Shown: piece by piece, positions 7,010-18,161 of the stretch
Layout: the number at the start of each line of letters is the position of its first letter
How positions within the stretch are numbered: position 1 is the first letter of the stretch
Assembly (NCBI GenBank): GCA_021790425.1
Contig: JAJYEA010000016.1
Location: 1 to 41,642, forward strand
Origin: Thermoplasmata archaeon
GTDB lineage: Archaea; Thermoplasmatota; Thermoplasmata; Lutacidiplasmatales; UBA184
DNA: 41,642 bases
Direction: 5' to 3'
Notes under the pieces: model-generated
Database searches by the model: none
Told to the model about the DNA's origin: nothing
The model's input: only the letters and a program-made list of their open reading frames with translations
Program-made: the position numbers and the translations under genes

Positions 7010-7103
7010 TGGCTCCCGCCAGCCCGTTCCCGCAGTGTGCGGCCGGATTCCCGGGGCACGGCCGGGGCCACCCGCCCGGGGAAGCGACCAACACGACGCG
7101 ATG

Positions 7104-7111
7104 GTTATATC
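7104..7111 (+). promoter_or_regulatory. TATA-like box of the redoxin gene
   Basis: GTTATATC is centred 26-27 nt before the ATG at 7134. This decides the start: upstream in-frame starts would lie ahead of or within the promoter. Confidence 0.6.
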
Positions 7112-7133
7112 GGGCGAGGTCCTCCACGGAGCA

Positions 7134-7727
7134 ATGGCAGAATTGGACCGTTTTCAGTTGCGTCCCGGAGACTCCCCGCCACCCTTCGACCTTCCGGGCG
7201 TGGACGGTCGTCGGCACCAGCTGGATGAGTTCTCCGGATCCCGGCTCCTTCTCGTCGTCTTCTCGTGTAACCACTGCCCCTACGCACAGGCCTGGGAGGG
7301 CCGTCTTATCGCCCTCTCGAAAGAGTTCGGTCCCAAGGGGCTGGCAACGGTCGTGATCAACCCGAACGAGACCGAGCACTACCCGGAGGACCGTTTCGAG
7401 GGCATGGTCGCCCGGGCGAAGGAGAAGGGGTACCCGTTCCCCTACCTCCGGGACGACTCCCAGGAGGTGGCCCGGGCCTACGGGGCCCTCGTCACGCCCC
7501 ACCCGTTCCTCTTCGCTCCTCGGTCGTCGGGCGCCGGCCCGGCCGCGAAATCCATGGAACTCATCTTCCAAGGGAAGATCGACGACTCCTGGGAAGACCC
7601 GAAGAAGGCGCGGCACCACTACCTCCGGGACGCGCTACAGGCGGCCCTGAAGGGAGAGCCCGTCCCCGTCACCACCTCCTCCGTGATCGGATGCTCCGTC
7701 AAGTGGAAAGAAGGGGCTGACGGCTGA
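7134..7727 (+). CDS. Thioredoxin-fold redoxin (AhpC/TSA-like) with CNHC motif
   Basis: A 197-residue cytoplasmic protein with a thioredoxin/peroxiredoxin fold: an N-terminal lead-in GDSPPPFDLPGVDG, the redox motif CNHC at residues 45-48 in VVFSCNHCPYAQAWEGRL, and the C-terminal signature IGCSVKWK. This pattern belongs to the thioredoxin-family proteins annotated as PRX-like or redoxin, probably a thiol peroxidase or disulfide reductase; the substrate is unknown. The start was chosen because a TATA box lies 26-27 nt upstream, giving a leaderless transcript, and because homology begins there. It is a single-gene unit followed by a hairpin. Confidence 0.85.
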   Translation: MAELDRFQLRPGDSPPPFDLPGVDGRRHQLDEFSGSRLLLVVFSCNHCPYAQAWEGRLIALSKEFGPKGLATVVINPNETEHYPEDRFEGMVARAKEKGYPFPYLRDDSQEVARAYGALVTPHPFLFAPRSSGAGPAAKSMELIFQGKIDDSWEDPKKARHHYLRDALQAALKGEPVPVTTSSVIGCSVKWKEGADG

Positions 7728-10447: not shown

Positions 10448-11584
10448 ATGGTTGACTGGGAGCGAGTGGAGAAGCTGCGCGCGAAGGGGGTCGACTGGGC
10501 CGCTATCGCAGCGGATGAGAAAGTGAGCTATGCGGCCCCCGAAGGGAGCGGGGATGCGGGCCGGGCGCTCAAGGCACTCTACTACTCCAAGAAGTCGCGC
10601 GGCTCCACGAAGCGTGCACGGACGGCCGAACAGGAAACCGTCCCGAACAGCACCCGGTTGAAGCGGGCGATGCCCGCGATCGGGGTGATCGTCATGGTGA
10701 CCGGACTGCTCTGGGCCATCATCGCCTACGAGTCGTCGCTGGTCTCCGTCTTCCTGCCGGCGTACCCTGACGTGCTCTTGGTGGTCGTCGGGGGCGCCGT
10801 CCTGCTCGGTCTGGGGGTCGTCTTCGGCACCTCGAGCTCCCTCCGGGAGTCGTGGAAGAAGCCCATCGCCATCGGGATCATCCTCGGGCTCGTGATCCCC
10901 GGAGCGATCGCGCTCGGGACCAGCAGCCTCGGAGTCCCCAACCTCTCCCCCCTCAACGTGTCGGAGCCGGGGGGATGGCAGAGCGAGTCGAACCGCAACC
11001 CCGTCTGGAGCGACTCGAATGCCCCGGTCGTGTTCTACTACGGGTCCATCGCCTGCCCGTACTGCTCGGCCTCGAGCTGGGCGCTCCAGCAGGCGCTGGC
11101 GCAATTCGGGACCTTGAACGGGATCAGCTATGGGTACTCCAACCCGAACGACGTCTACGCGAACACGCCGGAGGTGGAGTTCGTCTCCGCTTCGCTATCG
11201 AGCAACTCGATCTCGCTGGACGCCAAGGAAGGCAACGTGGATTCCTCGACCACCGCGGGGATCCCTCCGCTCTCGCTCATCGAGCAGGACTACCTCAACG
11301 CCTACGACCCGGGCGGCTCGATTCCCTTCTTCGTGGTCGGCGGGGTATTCGTCCATGTCGGGACCCTGATCAACCCCCCCACCTTGTCGGGGATGACGGA
11401 CTCCCAGGTACAGCAGATCATCGCCAATCCCAGCTCCAATCAACAGGTCTACAACACGATCCACCAACAGCAACTCTATCTCGAGGCCTTCATGGTCAAG
11501 GCCGACCAGCTCGCCGGCGTGACCCCGCCCGCGAGCGTCACGAGTAACACCGCCGTCATGGACATCGTCGCCTCGATCTCCTGA
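10448..11584 (+). CDS. DUF929-type membrane-anchored thioredoxin-fold protein, copy A
   Basis: A 378-residue protein. Residues 1-50 are cytoplasmic and HTH-like (DWERVEKLRAKGVDWAAIAAD), followed by a basic linker, three membrane segments (about 77-94, 107-127, 139-157) and an extracytoplasmic domain. That domain has a CPYC pair (Cys203 and Cys206) in FYYGSIACPYC, the DUF929 hallmark and the pattern of a DsbA/glutaredoxin-like site. These are the only two cysteines. The start at 10448 aligns exactly with copy B. A VKOR-like gene follows after 2 nt. The likely role is a surface thiol oxidase or isomerase recharged by VKOR; this is inference from family and context. Confidence 0.85.
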   Translation: MVDWERVEKLRAKGVDWAAIAADEKVSYAAPEGSGDAGRALKALYYSKKSRGSTKRARTAEQETVPNSTRLKRAMPAIGVIVMVTGLLWAIIAYESSLVSVFLPAYPDVLLVVVGGAVLLGLGVVFGTSSSLRESWKKPIAIGIILGLVIPGAIALGTSSLGVPNLSPLNVSEPGGWQSESNRNPVWSDSNAPVVFYYGSIACPYCSASSWALQQALAQFGTLNGISYGYSNPNDVYANTPEVEFVSASLSSNSISLDAKEGNVDSSTTAGIPPLSLIEQDYLNAYDPGGSIPFFVVGGVFVHVGTLINPPTLSGMTDSQVQQIIANPSSNQQVYNTIHQQQLYLEAFMVKADQLAGVTPPASVTSNTAVMDIVASIS

Positions 11585-11586
11585 CG

Positions 11587-12066
11587 ATGGTCGAAGCCGC
11601 TGTCCTGCATCGGCTGCTGCTCTTCTTCATCGTGCTAGGGATTGGGATCTCCAGCTTCGCCGCCCTTGAGGTGGTGGACCCGGCCCTGCAGAAGGGATGC
11701 ACGATCAACCCGCTCTTCTCGTGTCAGGCCGTGGACGAGAGCGGCCGGACCACCGTGGGCCCTGTCCCCGATTGGTCGATCGGCCTGGGGGGGTTCGTCG
11801 CGCTCCTCCTGGTGGACCTCCCGCTCATCCGTTCCTACGACGAACGGTACTTGAAGGCCATCCTCGGGCTCTCGCTCATCGGCGTGGTCGCGAGCGTCTA
11901 CTTCACGTACGTCGAGGTCTTTGAGATCGGGGCCATCTGTCCCGTCTGCCTGAGCGCCTACCTCGCCAACGTCGGGGTCCTGGCCGTCGCCCTGCTCCTC
12001 TACCGGATGCGTCAGCACGCCCTGGAGACGGAAGCAGGGTCCTCCGACGAGGCATCTGCCGCATAG
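11587..12066 (+). CDS. VKOR-like disulfide-forming membrane protein, copy A
   Basis: A 159-residue membrane protein with four hydrophobic segments (about 9-29, 63-81, 90-112, 122-140). It has the VKOR cysteine set: a loop pair Cys38 and Cys46 (CTINPLFSC) and the quinone-proximal pair Cys118 and Cys121 (CPVC). Bacterial and archaeal VKOR homologues reoxidise a DsbA-like partner and pass electrons to quinone. The gene begins 2 nt after the DUF929 stop, so the two are surely co-transcribed. The spacing of all four cysteines is identical in copy B. The C-terminal tail is short, acidic and cytoplasmic. Confidence 0.92.
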   Translation: MVEAAVLHRLLLFFIVLGIGISSFAALEVVDPALQKGCTINPLFSCQAVDESGRTTVGPVPDWSIGLGGFVALLLVDLPLIRSYDERYLKAILGLSLIGVVASVYFTYVEVFEIGAICPVCLSAYLANVGVLAVALLLYRMRQHALETEAGSSDEASAA

Positions 12067-12273
12067 TCATCGAACCGTCCCGCAGGACCAGCAGCGGGGG
12101 CGCTCTGGTATCTGCTGGTATGCAGCTATCCCTTCGTACTTCGTCGGCAATTAGTGAAATCGACACGCAATCGTTTTCGCTGTTTTATTTGCTAAAAGTA
12201 TGCAGATTCGGAGGAATCCGCGTTCCGGTGTGGGGAAAAGTAGAAAAACGGTGCTTGCCTCGCAAGAAACGGC
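12067..12273 (+). other. AT-rich intergenic region with hairpins between the two cassettes
   Basis: This 207-bp gap is much more AT-rich than its surroundings between about 12120 and 12250. It holds a GTATGCAG octamer twice (12118 and 12198), an imperfect 8-bp stem (12202-12221), a perfect CTTGC/GCAAG stem just before the next start (12254-12266) and a CCCGC/GCGGG stem near 12079-12098 that could end the first cassette. AAAAGTAGAAAAAC, centred about 29 nt before the start at 12274, is the likely promoter element. No gene is seen here. Confidence 0.5.
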
Positions 12274-13407
12274 ATGGTGAACTGGGACCGGGTCGAGCGT
12301 CTTCGTTCGAAGGGGATGGACTGGGACAGCATCGTCGCCGATCCCAAGGTGGACTACACCGCTCCCGAAGGCGTGGAGGACTCGGGCCGGGCGCTGAAGG
12401 CGCTGTACTACTCGCGAAAGTCCAAGAACAAGGTCCGAAAGGGCAAGGCCGATACGGAGGAGGAGGGTACGGGACGGCGACTGAAGCGGCTCCTCGTGCC
12501 GGTCGGGCTCTTGATCGCCGTGGCCGGTGGCATCTGGGCCCTGTTCGCCTTCGAGAGCTCGCTGATCTCGGTGTTCCTCCCGGCCTTCCCCGACGTGCTC
12601 CTCATCGCGGCGGCCGGTGCGGTCCTTCTCGGTGTCGGCCTCATCCTCGGCACCTCCTCGCTGGCGGAGGTCTGGAAGAAGCCGCTCGCCGCCGGCATCG
12701 CGCTGGGGCTCGGCATCTCGGGCGTCCTGGCCCTCATCGCGGTCGGGACCGGCATCCCCGTGCTCCATCCGCTCAACGTCAGCGAGCCCGGGAACTGGGG
12801 CAGCGAGAACCCGCGAAACGCGGCATGGACCAGCGGGGGGCTCCCCGTGGTGTTCTACTACGGCTCCATCGCCTGCCCCTACTGTTCCGCGGGGAGCTGG
12901 GCGTTCGTGCGGGCGCTCAGCCAGTTCGGAACTTGGAGCGGGTTAGGGTACGCCTACTCGAGTCCGACCGACGTCTACCCCAACACGCCGGAGGTCGATC
13001 TCACGCAGGCGTCCTTCTCCAGCAACTACCTCTCAGTGGACATCAAGGAAGGCAACAACGACCAGAACACCGGTGCCGGGATGCCCTCGATCTCGTTCGT
13101 GGAACAGGACTATCTGAACGAGTATGACGCCCAGGGCAGCATCCCCTTCTACGTCGTGGGGGGCTTCTTCGTCTACCTCGGTGGCCCGGTGGCCCCGTCG
13201 CTCCTGTCGGGGATGACCACGACGGAAGTGCAGAACCTGCTCTCGAACCCCCCGTCGAACGGATCGAATGCGTTCAACACGATCCAGCAAGTGGCCTGGA
13301 CGATGGAGGCCTTCTTCGTCAAGGCGGACCAGATGGTGGGGATCACCCCCCCGTCCGGAGTCACGGCGAACGCGAATGTGATGGCCATCGTGGCCAACAT
13401 CCGCTGA
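12274..13407 (+). CDS. DUF929-type membrane-anchored thioredoxin-fold protein, copy B
   Basis: A 377-residue paralogue of copy A, collinear along its whole length: a cytoplasmic HTH-like start (MVNWDRVERLRSKGMDW), the shared motif GRALKALYYS, a basic linker, three membrane segments and an extracytoplasmic domain with CPYC at Cys201 and Cys204. The invariant stretch before the site, VVFYYGSIACPYCSA, is the strongest match between copies. The linkers and the distal loops differ most. The VKOR partner follows after 3 nt. It has its own AT-rich promoter region, so the two cassettes may be expressed under different conditions. Confidence 0.85.
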   Translation: MVNWDRVERLRSKGMDWDSIVADPKVDYTAPEGVEDSGRALKALYYSRKSKNKVRKGKADTEEEGTGRRLKRLLVPVGLLIAVAGGIWALFAFESSLISVFLPAFPDVLLIAAAGAVLLGVGLILGTSSLAEVWKKPLAAGIALGLGISGVLALIAVGTGIPVLHPLNVSEPGNWGSENPRNAAWTSGGLPVVFYYGSIACPYCSAGSWAFVRALSQFGTWSGLGYAYSSPTDVYPNTPEVDLTQASFSSNYLSVDIKEGNNDQNTGAGMPSISFVEQDYLNEYDAQGSIPFYVVGGFFVYLGGPVAPSLLSGMTTTEVQNLLSNPPSNGSNAFNTIQQVAWTMEAFFVKADQMVGITPPSGVTANANVMAIVANIR

Positions 13408-13410
13408 GCG

Positions 13411-13887
13411 ATGGCCGACGCCGCGATCTGGCACCGCACGATCCTCTTCTTCCTGGTCGTGGGCCTCATCCTGTCGGTCTATGCCGCGGTCGAGACGTAC
13501 GACCCGGCGCTGCGCAGCACGTGCACGATCAGCCCCTACTGGTCCTGCGCCAAGGTCGACAGCAGCAACTACACCCAGGTGGGCCCCATCCCGGACTGGT
13601 CCATCGGGGTGGGAGGATATCTCGCGATGCTGGCGATCGACATCCCCCTGATGCGTTCCTACGACGGGCGGCTCCTCCAGGGCCTGCTCGTCTTCTCCGC
13701 CCTGGGCATCGCCATGTCGGTCTACTTCGCCTACGTGGAGCTCGTCCTGATCGACGCCTTCTGTCCGGTCTGCCTCAGCACCTACTTCGCCAACATCGGA
13801 GTGTTCGTGCCCGCGCTCGTCCTGCTCCGGAAGCGCTCCGCCCCCGTGGATGATGGCCCCGAGGCCGAAGGCCGGGCCCCCGAGTGA
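13411..13887 (+). CDS. VKOR-like disulfide-forming membrane protein, copy B
   Basis: A 158-residue paralogue of the VKOR-like protein of the first cassette. Cys38, Cys46, Cys118 and Cys121 fall at identical positions (CTISPYWSC and CPVC), and the loop VGPIPDWSIGVGG is nearly unchanged. Four membrane segments are predicted by eye. It begins 3 nt after the copy B DUF929 stop and ends 14 bp from the convergent RFC gene. The conserved pairing in both cassettes argues that each VKOR serves its own DUF929 partner. Confidence 0.92.
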   Translation: MADAAIWHRTILFFLVVGLILSVYAAVETYDPALRSTCTISPYWSCAKVDSSNYTQVGPIPDWSIGVGGYLAMLAIDIPLMRSYDGRLLQGLLVFSALGIAMSVYFAYVELVLIDAFCPVCLSTYFANIGVFVPALVLLRKRSAPVDDGPEAEGRAPE

Positions 13888-14996: not shown

Positions 14997-17900
14997 TCAC
15001 TCCTCCTGCCACGGCGGAGGATCGGTGCTCACCATGCTCGGCGCCGGGGGGGGCGGGGGCGGAGAGGCGGGAGTGCGTCGGCGCAGTAGGAGGACCGCCC
15101 CGATGATCGCCACCGCAGCGATCACGGCCACGAGCGCCCAGAGCCCCCATCCGGCACCCGCTGGGGAGCTGCCGGTGCCGCCCGCGGTGGGGGCGCTCAC
15201 GGTCAAGGTGAGCGACGCATGCTGTTCCTGTCCCTTCGGGTCGGAGACCGTCACGTTGACCATGTAGGTCCCGGATCCCGTCGGCGTGCACGAGAGGCTC
15301 GAGGTGTTGGACGAGCCACATCCCGGAGGCAAGCTCGCGTAGGCGTACGTATACGGAAGAACTCCCCCGGTCGCCTGGACGGTCAAGACCGTGGGGTTGC
15401 CCTGGACGACCGGGTTCACGGAGGCCGAGAAGCCCGATATCTGGAGCGCGGAGTAGGTGGGTGCGGTTGCCGTGAGGTTCGTCGACTGGGAGGCGGCGCG
15501 GTGGGTGGTGTCCGTGACCGAGACCGTGATGGTCCAGCTCCCCGCGGTGGTCGGCGTGCATGCGAGGGACGTGACGTTCTGGGAGGCGCACCCGCTCGGC
15601 AATCCCGCGTAGGCGATCGCGTACGGGGGTTTCCCTCCCGAAGCGGTGACATTCAGGTAGCTCATGGCTCCGAGCGTTATCGCGGCCGGAGTGGCCGTAA
15701 ACGCCGTGATGACCGGCCCGCTTCCCCCGCTCGGGGTCACCCTGAGCGTGGTGTTGGCCGTGGTGGTGTGGCGAGGGGTCGCCGAGTCGGAGACCGTGAC
15801 GGTGATGGTGTACGGCCCTCCCGCCGCAGCCGGGGTGCACGTGATGGAACTGGCGTTAGAGCCGGCACAGGGCGACGGGAGCCCGGAGTAGGCGTAGCTC
15901 AGGGGGCCGACGCCTCCCGTGGCGGTGACGTTGAGGTAGCTCGTGCCCCCCACGGGGACGGAGGACGGACTCGCGGTGAAGGCGGAGATGGACGGTCCCG
16001 TCGCTCCGCTCGGGGTGACCGTGAAGGACGTGGTGGCGGAAGTGGAGTGGGGTGTCGAGGCCGAGTCGTGGACGGTGACGGTGATGGTGTATGGACCTCC
16101 CGCCGCATTTGGAGCACACGTGATCGTGCTCGAGTTGGAGCTCGCGCAGGGGGTGGGGAGCCCGGAGTAACCGTAGGTCAGGGGTCCGACGCCTCCCGAA
16201 GCGGTGACGTTGAGGTAGGTGGTGCCCCCCGCGGGGATAGAGGCCGGGCTCGCGGTGAAGGCGGAGATGGACGGTCCCGTCCCTCCACTCGGGGTGACCG
16301 TGAAGGAAGTCGTGGCGCTGGTGGTGTGGCGGGGAGAGGCACTGTCGCTGACGGTCACCGTGATGGAGAAGGGGCCGCCGGCGGAGGAGGGGGCGCACGT
16401 GATGGTACTGGAGTTGGAGCTCACGCAGGGAGCGGGAAGACCGGCGTAGGCGTAGGTGAGGGGTCCCGTCCCGCCGGAGGCGGAGAGGTTGAGGTAGGTC
16501 GTGCCCCCGACGGTGAAGGTGGAGGGGGAGGCGGTGAAGGAGGAGATCGTGGGGACCGAGTTGGCCGCCCCCAACGTGATGGTGATGGTGGTGGTTCCGC
16601 CGGCCGTCACGGTGCCCGTGGCCGAGCCGGAGCCGTAGCCACCATCGGAGGCGGTCGCGGTGTAGGTCCCCGGCGAGACGGCGTAGTAGGTCACGCTCCC
16701 GTTGGCATCCGTTCGCGCGGGTCCGCTTCCCGGCAGCTGCACGAAGGCTCCGGAAAGGGGGGAACTGCTCGCGTCGACGACGTGGACGGTCAGGGAACCC
16801 GCGGAGGCATTCTGGATGGGGGTCTGACCGAAGTAGGTCTGGAGGTTCCCCTGGCTGTCGTCCTCACCCCATACCCCCGCATCGGTCCCCCAGGGGGTGA
16901 TGGTGTTCCCGATGAAATCGCCGGGCCAGAAGCCGCTTCCCGTCCCCGCCTGCAGGTCCGAGAGCTGTTGGTCCGGGCTCCAAGTGGTTCCGTGGTCGCT
17001 GCTGTCGGACTCGTAGACGTACCAGGTGGATGTCGCCGTGTTCGACCGGGTATCGAGCCAGACGATCCCGATGTCCCCGTTGGAGAGGGAGGTCGCGATG
17101 GCCGGTGTCAGGTAGGCCGTGCCCGCGGGCACCGTCCCCACCACGTTCACCGGGGTGGACCAAGTAGCCCCCAGGTCCCCGCTCTGGGTGAACCAGACGC
17201 CGCCCGTGTTCGACACGTAGACGAGGTCGAGGACCGCTCCCGCCCCCCACGTGACCTGCCAGGAGATGCTGCCCCCAGCGGCCGTGCTGGCGGCATCGCA
17301 TCCGGGCGACGATCCGGCGGCCGGTGCCCAGCTCGCCCCGCCGTTCGTCGAGAGGATGATCGTGCAATCGTTGCTCGTATTGAGGTCCGCCACGCCCCAG
17401 AGCGTGTCGTTGTAGGCAAAGGCGTCGATGGGGATGTTGTTCTGGCCGTAGATGACCTGCGGGGTGTGGAAGTGAACCCCGTCGTAGGCGGAGGCGAGGA
17501 ACACGTTGGTCGTGGACCCCGTCGCATCGTCCACCGTCTGGTAGACGGTCCCATTCGGGGTCGAGGCGATCCAGTCGCGGTCCACGAACGTGGCCGTCTG
17601 GGAGTACGGCATGGAATTGATCGGCTGGGACCACTTGCTCCCGTTGTCCCAGATGGCGGTGATGTAGTCCTGCGTTTGGAGGCTGCCCCCGCTGCAACCG
17701 CTGTTGCAGGCCCCGTAGCCGAACCACATCGTCCCGTTGGGCGAGGTGGTGGCCGTTGCGACATCGTACTGCCACGAGGCTCCGGGAACGGTCACGATGT
17801 GCTGGGTGCCGAAGGTGGTCCCGCTGTCGTTCGAGATCGCGAAGCCGGTCGGACCCACGGGGGAATCCAGCTTCCCCTGTTCCTCCCAGTCGACCAACAG

Positions 17901-18161
17901 GGTCCCGTACCGGTTCACGCCCAAAGTAGGCTCGCCGGAAGGATTCGGGTCCACGTGGCTCACCTGGATGTTGGGAGGAGCCGCCAGCGCTGGGTGGGCC
18001 GCCCGGGCGGGGCCGAAGCTGGCCGCCCTCGGCCCCCCATGGGTACTGGCGGCAGAACCCTGGAAGGGTCCCGCCCCCGCGGGGGTCATGAGAACCCCCA
18101 TCAACAGAAGAATCCAGCTGGCTCTCGCCAAGGCCCCCCACGTCCTCCCCCGCTCGGTCAT
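14997..18161 (-). CDS. Large secreted surface protein: Asp-box propeller, CarboxypepD-like domain, five Ig-like repeats, C-terminal membrane anchor
   Basis: A 1054-residue protein. A basic start and hydrophobic segment (about 15-25) form a signal peptide. The N-terminal half has four Asp-box motifs (such as SGTTF, NGGASW, LGATW and HGTTW), typical of sialidase-like beta-propellers, though no sialidase catalytic residues were identified. A carboxypeptidase-regulatory-like domain follows, then five Ig/PKD-like repeats of about 93 residues, most with two cysteines that could form a disulfide. A C-terminal membrane helix (LWALVAVIAAVAIIGAVLLL), an Arg stop-transfer and a proline-rich tail (PPPPPP) end the protein. 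Many N-x-S/T sites suggest glycosylation. The start at 18161 is set by the signal peptide; the frame stays open upstream but overlaps the ABC transporter. It is probably a cell-surface adhesin or enzyme. Confidence 0.85.
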   Translation of the reverse strand: MTERGRTWGALARASWILLLMGVLMTPAGAGPFQGSAASTHGGPRAASFGPARAAHPALAAPPNIQVSHVDPNPSGEPTLGVNRYGTLLVDWEEQGKLDSPVGPTGFAISNDSGTTFGTQHIVTVPGASWQYDVATATTSPNGTMWFGYGACNSGCSGGSLQTQDYITAIWDNGSKWSQPINSMPYSQTATFVDRDWIASTPNGTVYQTVDDATGSTTNVFLASAYDGVHFHTPQVIYGQNNIPIDAFAYNDTLWGVADLNTSNDCTIILSTNGGASWAPAAGSSPGCDAASTAAGGSISWQVTWGAGAVLDLVYVSNTGGVWFTQSGDLGATWSTPVNVVGTVPAGTAYLTPAIATSLSNGDIGIVWLDTRSNTATSTWYVYESDSSDHGTTWSPDQQLSDLQAGTGSGFWPGDFIGNTITPWGTDAGVWGEDDSQGNLQTYFGQTPIQNASAGSLTVHVVDASSSPLSGAFVQLPGSGPARTDANGSVTYYAVSPGTYTATASDGGYGSGSATGTVTAGGTTTITITLGAANSVPTISSFTASPSTFTVGGTTYLNLSASGGTGPLTYAYAGLPAPCVSSNSSTITCAPSSAGGPFSITVTVSDSASPRHTTSATTSFTVTPSGGTGPSISAFTASPASIPAGGTTYLNVTASGGVGPLTYGYSGLPTPCASSNSSTITCAPNAAGGPYTITVTVHDSASTPHSTSATTSFTVTPSGATGPSISAFTASPSSVPVGGTSYLNVTATGGVGPLSYAYSGLPSPCAGSNASSITCTPAAAGGPYTITVTVSDSATPRHTTTANTTLRVTPSGGSGPVITAFTATPAAITLGAMSYLNVTASGGKPPYAIAYAGLPSGCASQNVTSLACTPTTAGSWTITVSVTDTTHRAASQSTNLTATAPTYSALQISGFSASVNPVVQGNPTVLTVQATGGVLPYTYAYASLPPGCGSSNTSSLSCTPTGSGTYMVNVTVSDPKGQEQHASLTLTVSAPTAGGTGSSPAGAGWGLWALVAVIAAVAIIGAVLLLRRRTPASPPPPPPAPSMVSTDPPPWQEE
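15195..16556 (-). repeat. Five tandem Ig-domain-coding repeats, 279-bp period
   Basis: The equivalent codons of the GPSISAFTASP-type motif begin at 16556, 16277, 15998, 15719 and 15449. The first four repeats are therefore exactly 279 bp (93 codons) apart and the last 270 bp. Repeats 2 and 3 are also very alike at DNA level, which points to recent duplication or gene conversion. Confidence 0.8.

Follow-up and report, generated by a model that had tools for sequence, protein, structure and literature searches.

Tandem DUF929-VKOR gene pairs as a probable surface disulfide-forming relay in an archaeon of the Lutacidiplasmatales

The prokaryotic VKORs studied to date oxidize DsbA-like proteins (PMC11208910, PMC12453122). 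In the actinobacterial VKOR-DsbA system (Rv2969c and VKOR of Mycobacterium tuberculosis), a separate VKOR with four redox cysteines stands with a membrane-tethered, thioredoxin-fold DsbA that carries its CPxC and cis-Pro outside the membrane (PMC3792642), and in the VKOR-Trx/DsbA fusions of cyanobacteria (Synechococcus type) and clostridia (VKOR-DsbA, PMC12453122) VKOR is tied to its own thioredoxin partner. Disulfide formation in archaeal exported proteins is poorly described, and a 2020 review of archaeal thiols names neither VKOR nor DsbA (PMC7278568). Here we analyzed a 41,642-nucleotide (nt) stretch of a Thermoplasmata archaeon (assembly GCA_021790425.1, contig JAJYEA010000016.1, our C13), referred to in its entirety as the window. 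At positions 10448-13887 it carries two tandem gene pairs, all four open reading frames (ORFs) on the + strand, in each of which a gene for a DUF929 membrane protein is followed by one for VKOR (Table 1). UBA184 and the AcS/SubAcS metagenome-assembled genomes (MAGs), which belong to the same GTDB-type family as the source, were placed in Candidatus Lutacidiplasmatales by Sheridan et al. (PMC9287336). These are Thermoplasmatota of acid soils, and the nearest named relatives of the source genome, which is 98.6% complete, are Thermoplasmata MAGs from acidic sites.

We propose that the two proteins of each cassette act as a relay, a variant of the VKOR/DsbA relay, by which disulfide bonds are formed on the external side of the membrane, and give this a probability of about 0.78. 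The inner CXXC of VKOR (118/121) would reduce membrane quinone, and the resulting disulfide would pass from the outer VKOR pair (38/46), by direct contact, to the CPYC of the adjacent membrane-anchored DUF929, which would hand it on to cysteines of exported proteins. Electrons would run from protein thiols through the DUF929 CPYC, VKOR 38/46 and the VKOR CXXC to quinone. DUF929 probably works like DsbA, yet forms a thioredoxin-type family of its own, anchored in the membrane through three helices. The preliminary description of the locus had suggested a surface disulfide-forming system, an interpretation that the adjacency of the genes, the predicted fold and the outward CPYC support. It gives DUF929 a specific, testable function; in the literature examined that names DUF929, a link to VKOR is not apparent.

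The tandem pairs described earlier hold up at the level of ORFs and families. Both DUF929 proteins match PF06053 (E 6e-16 for copy 1 and 3e-16 for copy 2; 59 and 60 bits against a curated cut-off of 24.6), both VKORs match PF07884 (3e-21 and 3e-23; 76 and 83 bits against 27.5), and the gap between DUF929 and VKOR is 2 nt in cassette 1 and 3 nt in cassette 2. A scan of 84,980 species genomes listed 80 loci, all archaeal in context. VKOR adjoins DUF929 at 71 of these, and at 2 of the remaining 9 the contig ends just after DUF929. In a set of 106 genomes from the order, both genes occur in 93, DUF929 alone in 1, VKOR alone in 2 and neither in 10, so the pairing is not due to chance; 94 of the 100 VKOR matches come immediately after a DUF929 gene in the same orientation, bearing out the co-occurrence and adjacency that had been anticipated. 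Five of the six non-adjacent VKORs are at contig ends (one confirmed, G282), and the clear exception is G243, from another family of the order. The VKOR of that genome (L130:4125-4610, +) is adjoined on the opposite strand by a thioredoxin-reductase-like gene. No natural DUF929-VKOR fusion occurs in the 80 loci, and the Sulfolobales have both families (S. acidocaldarius control).

As first reported, the VKOR cysteines fall at 38, 46, 118 and 121 in both copies. These four and Ser52 are present in 74/74 VKORs. The CP[YF]C motif of DUF929 is likewise invariant in all 91 full-length members from the source's family; an IPF motif is invariant or nearly so, with a fully invariant Pro where thioredoxin has its cis-Pro. 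All 87 relatives match the PF06053 profile. The preliminary description gave the CPYC pair as the sole DUF929 cysteines and three membrane helices, which is correct for the window, where the cysteines are 203/206 and 201/204 and the helices precede the CPYC domain; it left out a conserved, presumably cytoplasmic module of about 72 residues before the first helix, with an N-terminal start (MVDW) conserved among relatives, and a second cysteine pair carried by most relatives and missing from both window proteins. This pair, which corresponds to positions 163 and 277 of DUF929-1, is complete in 68/91 sequences, absent in 23/91 and never single, and thus behaves as a disulfide in an oxidizing compartment.

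Charge bias places the redox sites on the outer face. Averaged over the 91 DUF929s, Lys and Arg make up a fraction of 0.22 of the N-terminal module, 0.005 of the loop between helices 1 and 2, 0.25 of the loop between helices 2 and 3, and 0.02 of the CPYC domain. The corresponding means for the 74 VKORs are 0.20 (N-terminus), 0.04 (Cys38/46 loop), 0.25 (loop between helices 2 and 3) and 0.01 (loop before the CXXC). By the positive-inside rule, the DUF929 CPYC and all VKOR redox cysteines lie outside in both copies, as the preliminary description had it for CPYC. Hydropathy gives four transmembrane helices in VKOR-1; in VKOR-2 helix 2 scores under the threshold, though it aligns.

We modeled the DUF929 soluble domain alone with AlphaFold2 from an 87-sequence alignment (pLDDT, the per-residue confidence, 96.3; pTM, the predicted template-modeling score, 0.93). 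The elements of this confident model run in a thioredoxin-type order: strand, CxxC helix, strand, beta insertion, helix, Pro127, strand, strand, helix. CPYC occupies residues 37-40 of the model, and Pro127, a putative cis-Pro, directly precedes strand 128-131. The insertion consists of three strands (residues 75-96), with core helix 111-120 the only helix there. By this model the soluble domain is a thioredoxin core, with CxxC at the start of helix 1 and a beta rather than a helical insertion, in line with the thioredoxin-like fold that had been expected. The top Foldseek matches in the PDB are mostly of the thioredoxin superfamily (GST, SspA, DsbA, TrxP) and weak (E at least 0.09, template-modeling score at most 0.41), so the model would make DUF929 a divergent member of that superfamily. 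Single members match Thioredoxin_3 at 4e-5 and Redoxin at 2e-4 in Pfam, with no match to DsbA/Thioredoxin_4 profiles among the Pfam matches of the 87 members. Similarity to TrxA or DsbA is confined to the CxxC stretch, which for E. coli DsbA amounts to 18 columns, and we rejected a classification of DUF929 as DsbA by sequence on these two grounds. DUF929 had been called a family of no established function, although HHpred placed it in the thioredoxin-like clan as early as 2010 (Pawlowski et al., PMC3091736).

In other orders of the phylum the gene beside VKOR is of another kind. At seven of ten VKOR loci from other Thermoplasmatota orders the adjacent gene encodes a CxxC protein whose N-terminus includes a hydrophobic stretch; six of these seven proteins match AhpC-TSA/Redoxin/thioredoxin models (L150, L151, L153, L154, L157, L158). 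Like the window, these loci set VKOR beside a membrane-anchored CxxC protein, but the partner is AhpC-TSA/Redoxin-type with one N-terminal hydrophobic segment by eye, not DUF929. Since the neighbor of VKOR elsewhere in the phylum is usually a TlpA-type thioredoxin, DUF929 in Lutacidiplasmatales appears from these sequences to fill that same slot, the DsbA slot. The two-gene plan recurs in Thermoplasmatota, with one family exchanged for another as the thioredoxin partner of VKOR. The actinobacterial system shares with the cassettes a separate VKOR with four redox cysteines and a tethered thioredoxin-fold partner with an outward CPxC. Its DsbA, however, is a member of the DsbA/Thioredoxin_4-type families with a helical insertion, whereas DUF929 has no such match, a beta-rich insertion, three transmembrane helices and the extra module before the first. 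The fusions share the tie between VKOR and a thioredoxin partner of its own; here there are two separate ORFs, DUF929 first, and a different partner family.

DUF929 might instead repair wrong disulfides as an isomerase or a reductase of DsbC/DsbG or ResA/TlpA type, with VKOR oxidizing another surface thioredoxin. We consider this improbable. CPYC is known also in reductive family members, VKOR has TlpA-type partners elsewhere in the phylum, and the source genome encodes four other membrane-anchored surface thioredoxin-fold proteins. Against it, the adjacent VKOR belongs to an oxidase family, and the source genome yielded no DsbD/CcdA as an electron source. In favor of the relay, that genome yielded no DsbB and no Thioredoxin_4-type DsbA either, and Lutacidiplasmatales are reported to be aerobic, with complexes III and IV (PMC9287336). 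Cytochromes c are reported to be absent throughout Thermoplasmatota (PMC9287336); a role in cytochrome c maturation was rejected on this absence and that of DsbD/CcdA. CPxC has also been lost from DUF929s of a VKOR-less sister family. This second family of the class (f4), probably the Ferroplasma/Picrophilus relatives as inferred from PMC8345856, has DUF929 in 19 genomes and VKOR in none. Its readable DUF929s comprise 22 with one active-site cysteine (mostly GCPIGA), 8 with none (GSPxG) and 1 with CPYC, so that one or both cysteines are lost in 30 of 31. The redox motif of DUF929 thus largely tracks VKOR, and the relay explains the cysteine-less lineages. DUF929 relatives were not found in plasmids (one CPIG-type query) or in viral contigs, and a mobile origin was rejected for that reason.

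Several observations weigh against the relay. One VKOR-less genome (G125) retains a CPYC DUF929, and the similarity searches returned low Foldseek scores and resemblance to TrxA or DsbA over the CxxC stretch alone. The four other surface thioredoxin-fold proteins are potential VKOR partners, so VKOR may serve more than DUF929, and DUF929 as the sole surface thioredoxin was rejected. Immunoglobulin (Ig)-like domains also keep their cysteine pairs in three MAGs in which neither gene was found, but these MAGs are 91-95% complete and may miss the locus, and the comparison does not discriminate dependence on the cassette. The pairing had been called strict and the partners dedicated. Adjacency is near-universal within the order, but both words are slightly too strong, given the four other surface thioredoxin-fold proteins and the orphan DUF929 genes (DUF929 without VKOR) of the source genome. 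The CPYC DUF929 of G125, an f4-family genome (G125:C1, L147:2850-3728, -), closely resembles the Lutacidiplasmatales type (1e-33) and is possibly a transfer or a relic.

It is very unlikely that the adjacency of DUF929 and VKOR reflects a gene order frozen within one clade and carries no functional information. Every CPYC DUF929-VKOR pair found falls in one archaeal family, and because the two genes form an operon they are lost together, so their joint absence is not independent evidence. The adjacency is, because the surroundings change: the window's neighbor genes recur in just 3 of the 80 loci each, while the pair stays intact down to about 30% identity, and in other orders the slot beside VKOR is filled by a different thioredoxin-type family. 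Aeropyrum pernix reportedly has an inverted pair of VKORs, VKORo and VKORi, one oxidizing outside and one in the cytoplasm (a finding attributed to Hibender, 2017). That the window's two VKORs, also archaeal and present as two paralogs in one genome, form such a pair was rejected as scarcely credible, since both copies share the same loop charge pattern (N-terminus and loop between helices 2 and 3 positive) with no sign of inversion, and CPYC lies outside in both DUF929 partners. The purpose of VKOR chemistry can be construed either way, but that quinone or epoxide reduction is what it serves here, with DUF929 donating electrons as PDI does for animal VKORC1, deserves hardly any weight, as vitamin K cycling coupled to gamma-carboxylation belongs to animals and the prokaryotic VKORs studied act on DsbA-like proteins.

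A more far-reaching form of the relay, which we offer tentatively, is that DUF929 is bound to VKOR permanently in a membrane complex, a split VKOR-thioredoxin enzyme with the DUF929 helices packed on VKOR. This complex would be the archaeal DsbA-type system of the order, and DUF929 would have become a redox-dead surface protein in the VKOR-less Thermoplasmatales relatives.

Table 1. Positions in the window of the two cassettes, their redox sites, the spacer and a candidate client gene.
Feature	Position	Strand	Details
DUF929-1, 378 residues	10448..11584	+	residues 1-72 N-terminal module before first transmembrane helix (presumed cytoplasmic); transmembrane 74-92, 109-127, 140-158; extracytoplasmic thioredoxin-type domain ~165-378
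CPYC redox site of DUF929-1, Cys203-Cys206	11054..11065	+	
VKOR-1, 159 residues, 4 transmembrane helices	11587..12066	+	Cys38/46 at 11698-11700, 11722-11724; CXXC 118/121 at 11938-11940, 11947-11949
Spacer between cassettes	12067..12273	+	AT-richer, with TATA-like TTTATTTG; read from sequence
DUF929-2, 377 residues	12274..13407	+	architecture as DUF929-1
CPYC redox site of DUF929-2, Cys201-Cys204	12874..12885	+	
VKOR-2, 158 residues	13411..13887	+	Cys38/46 at 13522-13524, 13546-13548; CXXC 118/121 at 13762-13764, 13771-13773
Candidate client, 1054-residue surface protein	14997..18161	-	14 cysteines, all in close pairs; five Ig-like domains, each C-x9-C

The source genome has two VKORs, both in the window, and a third DUF929 on contig C78 without VKOR. 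The two window DUF929s are sisters in the tree (support 86/86) at 58% identity; the tandem copy is therefore particular to the source lineage, though old. Resolution in the VKOR tree is too low for the duplication to be dated. Among the loci examined, the full double cassette occurs in the window only, and other duplication states are DUF929-VKOR-DUF929 and DUF929-DUF929-VKOR (L061, L064, L079, L112; L065, L067, L068). The TATA-like TTTATTTG in the spacer is a probable separate promoter of cassette 2. The opposite-strand neighbors are housekeeping genes for an Elp3-type radical SAM protein, an AA_kinase protein (isopentenyl phosphate kinase type by sequence) and a replication factor C small subunit. 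At same-genus-type loci the upstream flank (L049, L050, L051) and the downstream flank (L049, L050, L052) match those of the window and enclose one cassette.

The gene for the 1054-residue surface protein lies 1.1 kb downstream of the cassettes on the opposite strand, and its product may be a client. Ig-like C-x9-C domains number at least 150 in the source genome, 134 in a same-genus genome and 1-32 in sampled other genera, which suggests a large genus-specific expansion of surface proteins. The cysteine pair is kept in nearly all of the Ig-like domains examined.

Thioredoxin-type proteins also occur outside the cassettes. A 286-residue protein (G000:C29:27562-28272; L191:1120-1977, +) joins a DUF929-like N-terminal module (WxRVExLRxxGxxWxxIAxDP...GRALKALY) to one transmembrane helix and a TlpA-type thioredoxin domain (SCSPC), and this shared module seems to mark surface thioredoxin proteins of the order. 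Three others (G000:C41:28417, L193; C71:4332, L194; C80:3058, L195) have a C2H2-like zinc-finger N-terminus (CPxC...H...VHP), one transmembrane helix and an outer TlpA-type thioredoxin domain. A 603-residue surface protein has a CPYC DUF929 domain and a C-terminal transmembrane helix, with no adjacent VKOR (L043:3282-5090, -; G040:C74). Within the window, positions 7035-7727 (+), which lie 2.7 kb upstream of the cassettes, encode an AhpC-TSA/TlpA-like protein that bears an SCNHC motif and lacks transmembrane helices.

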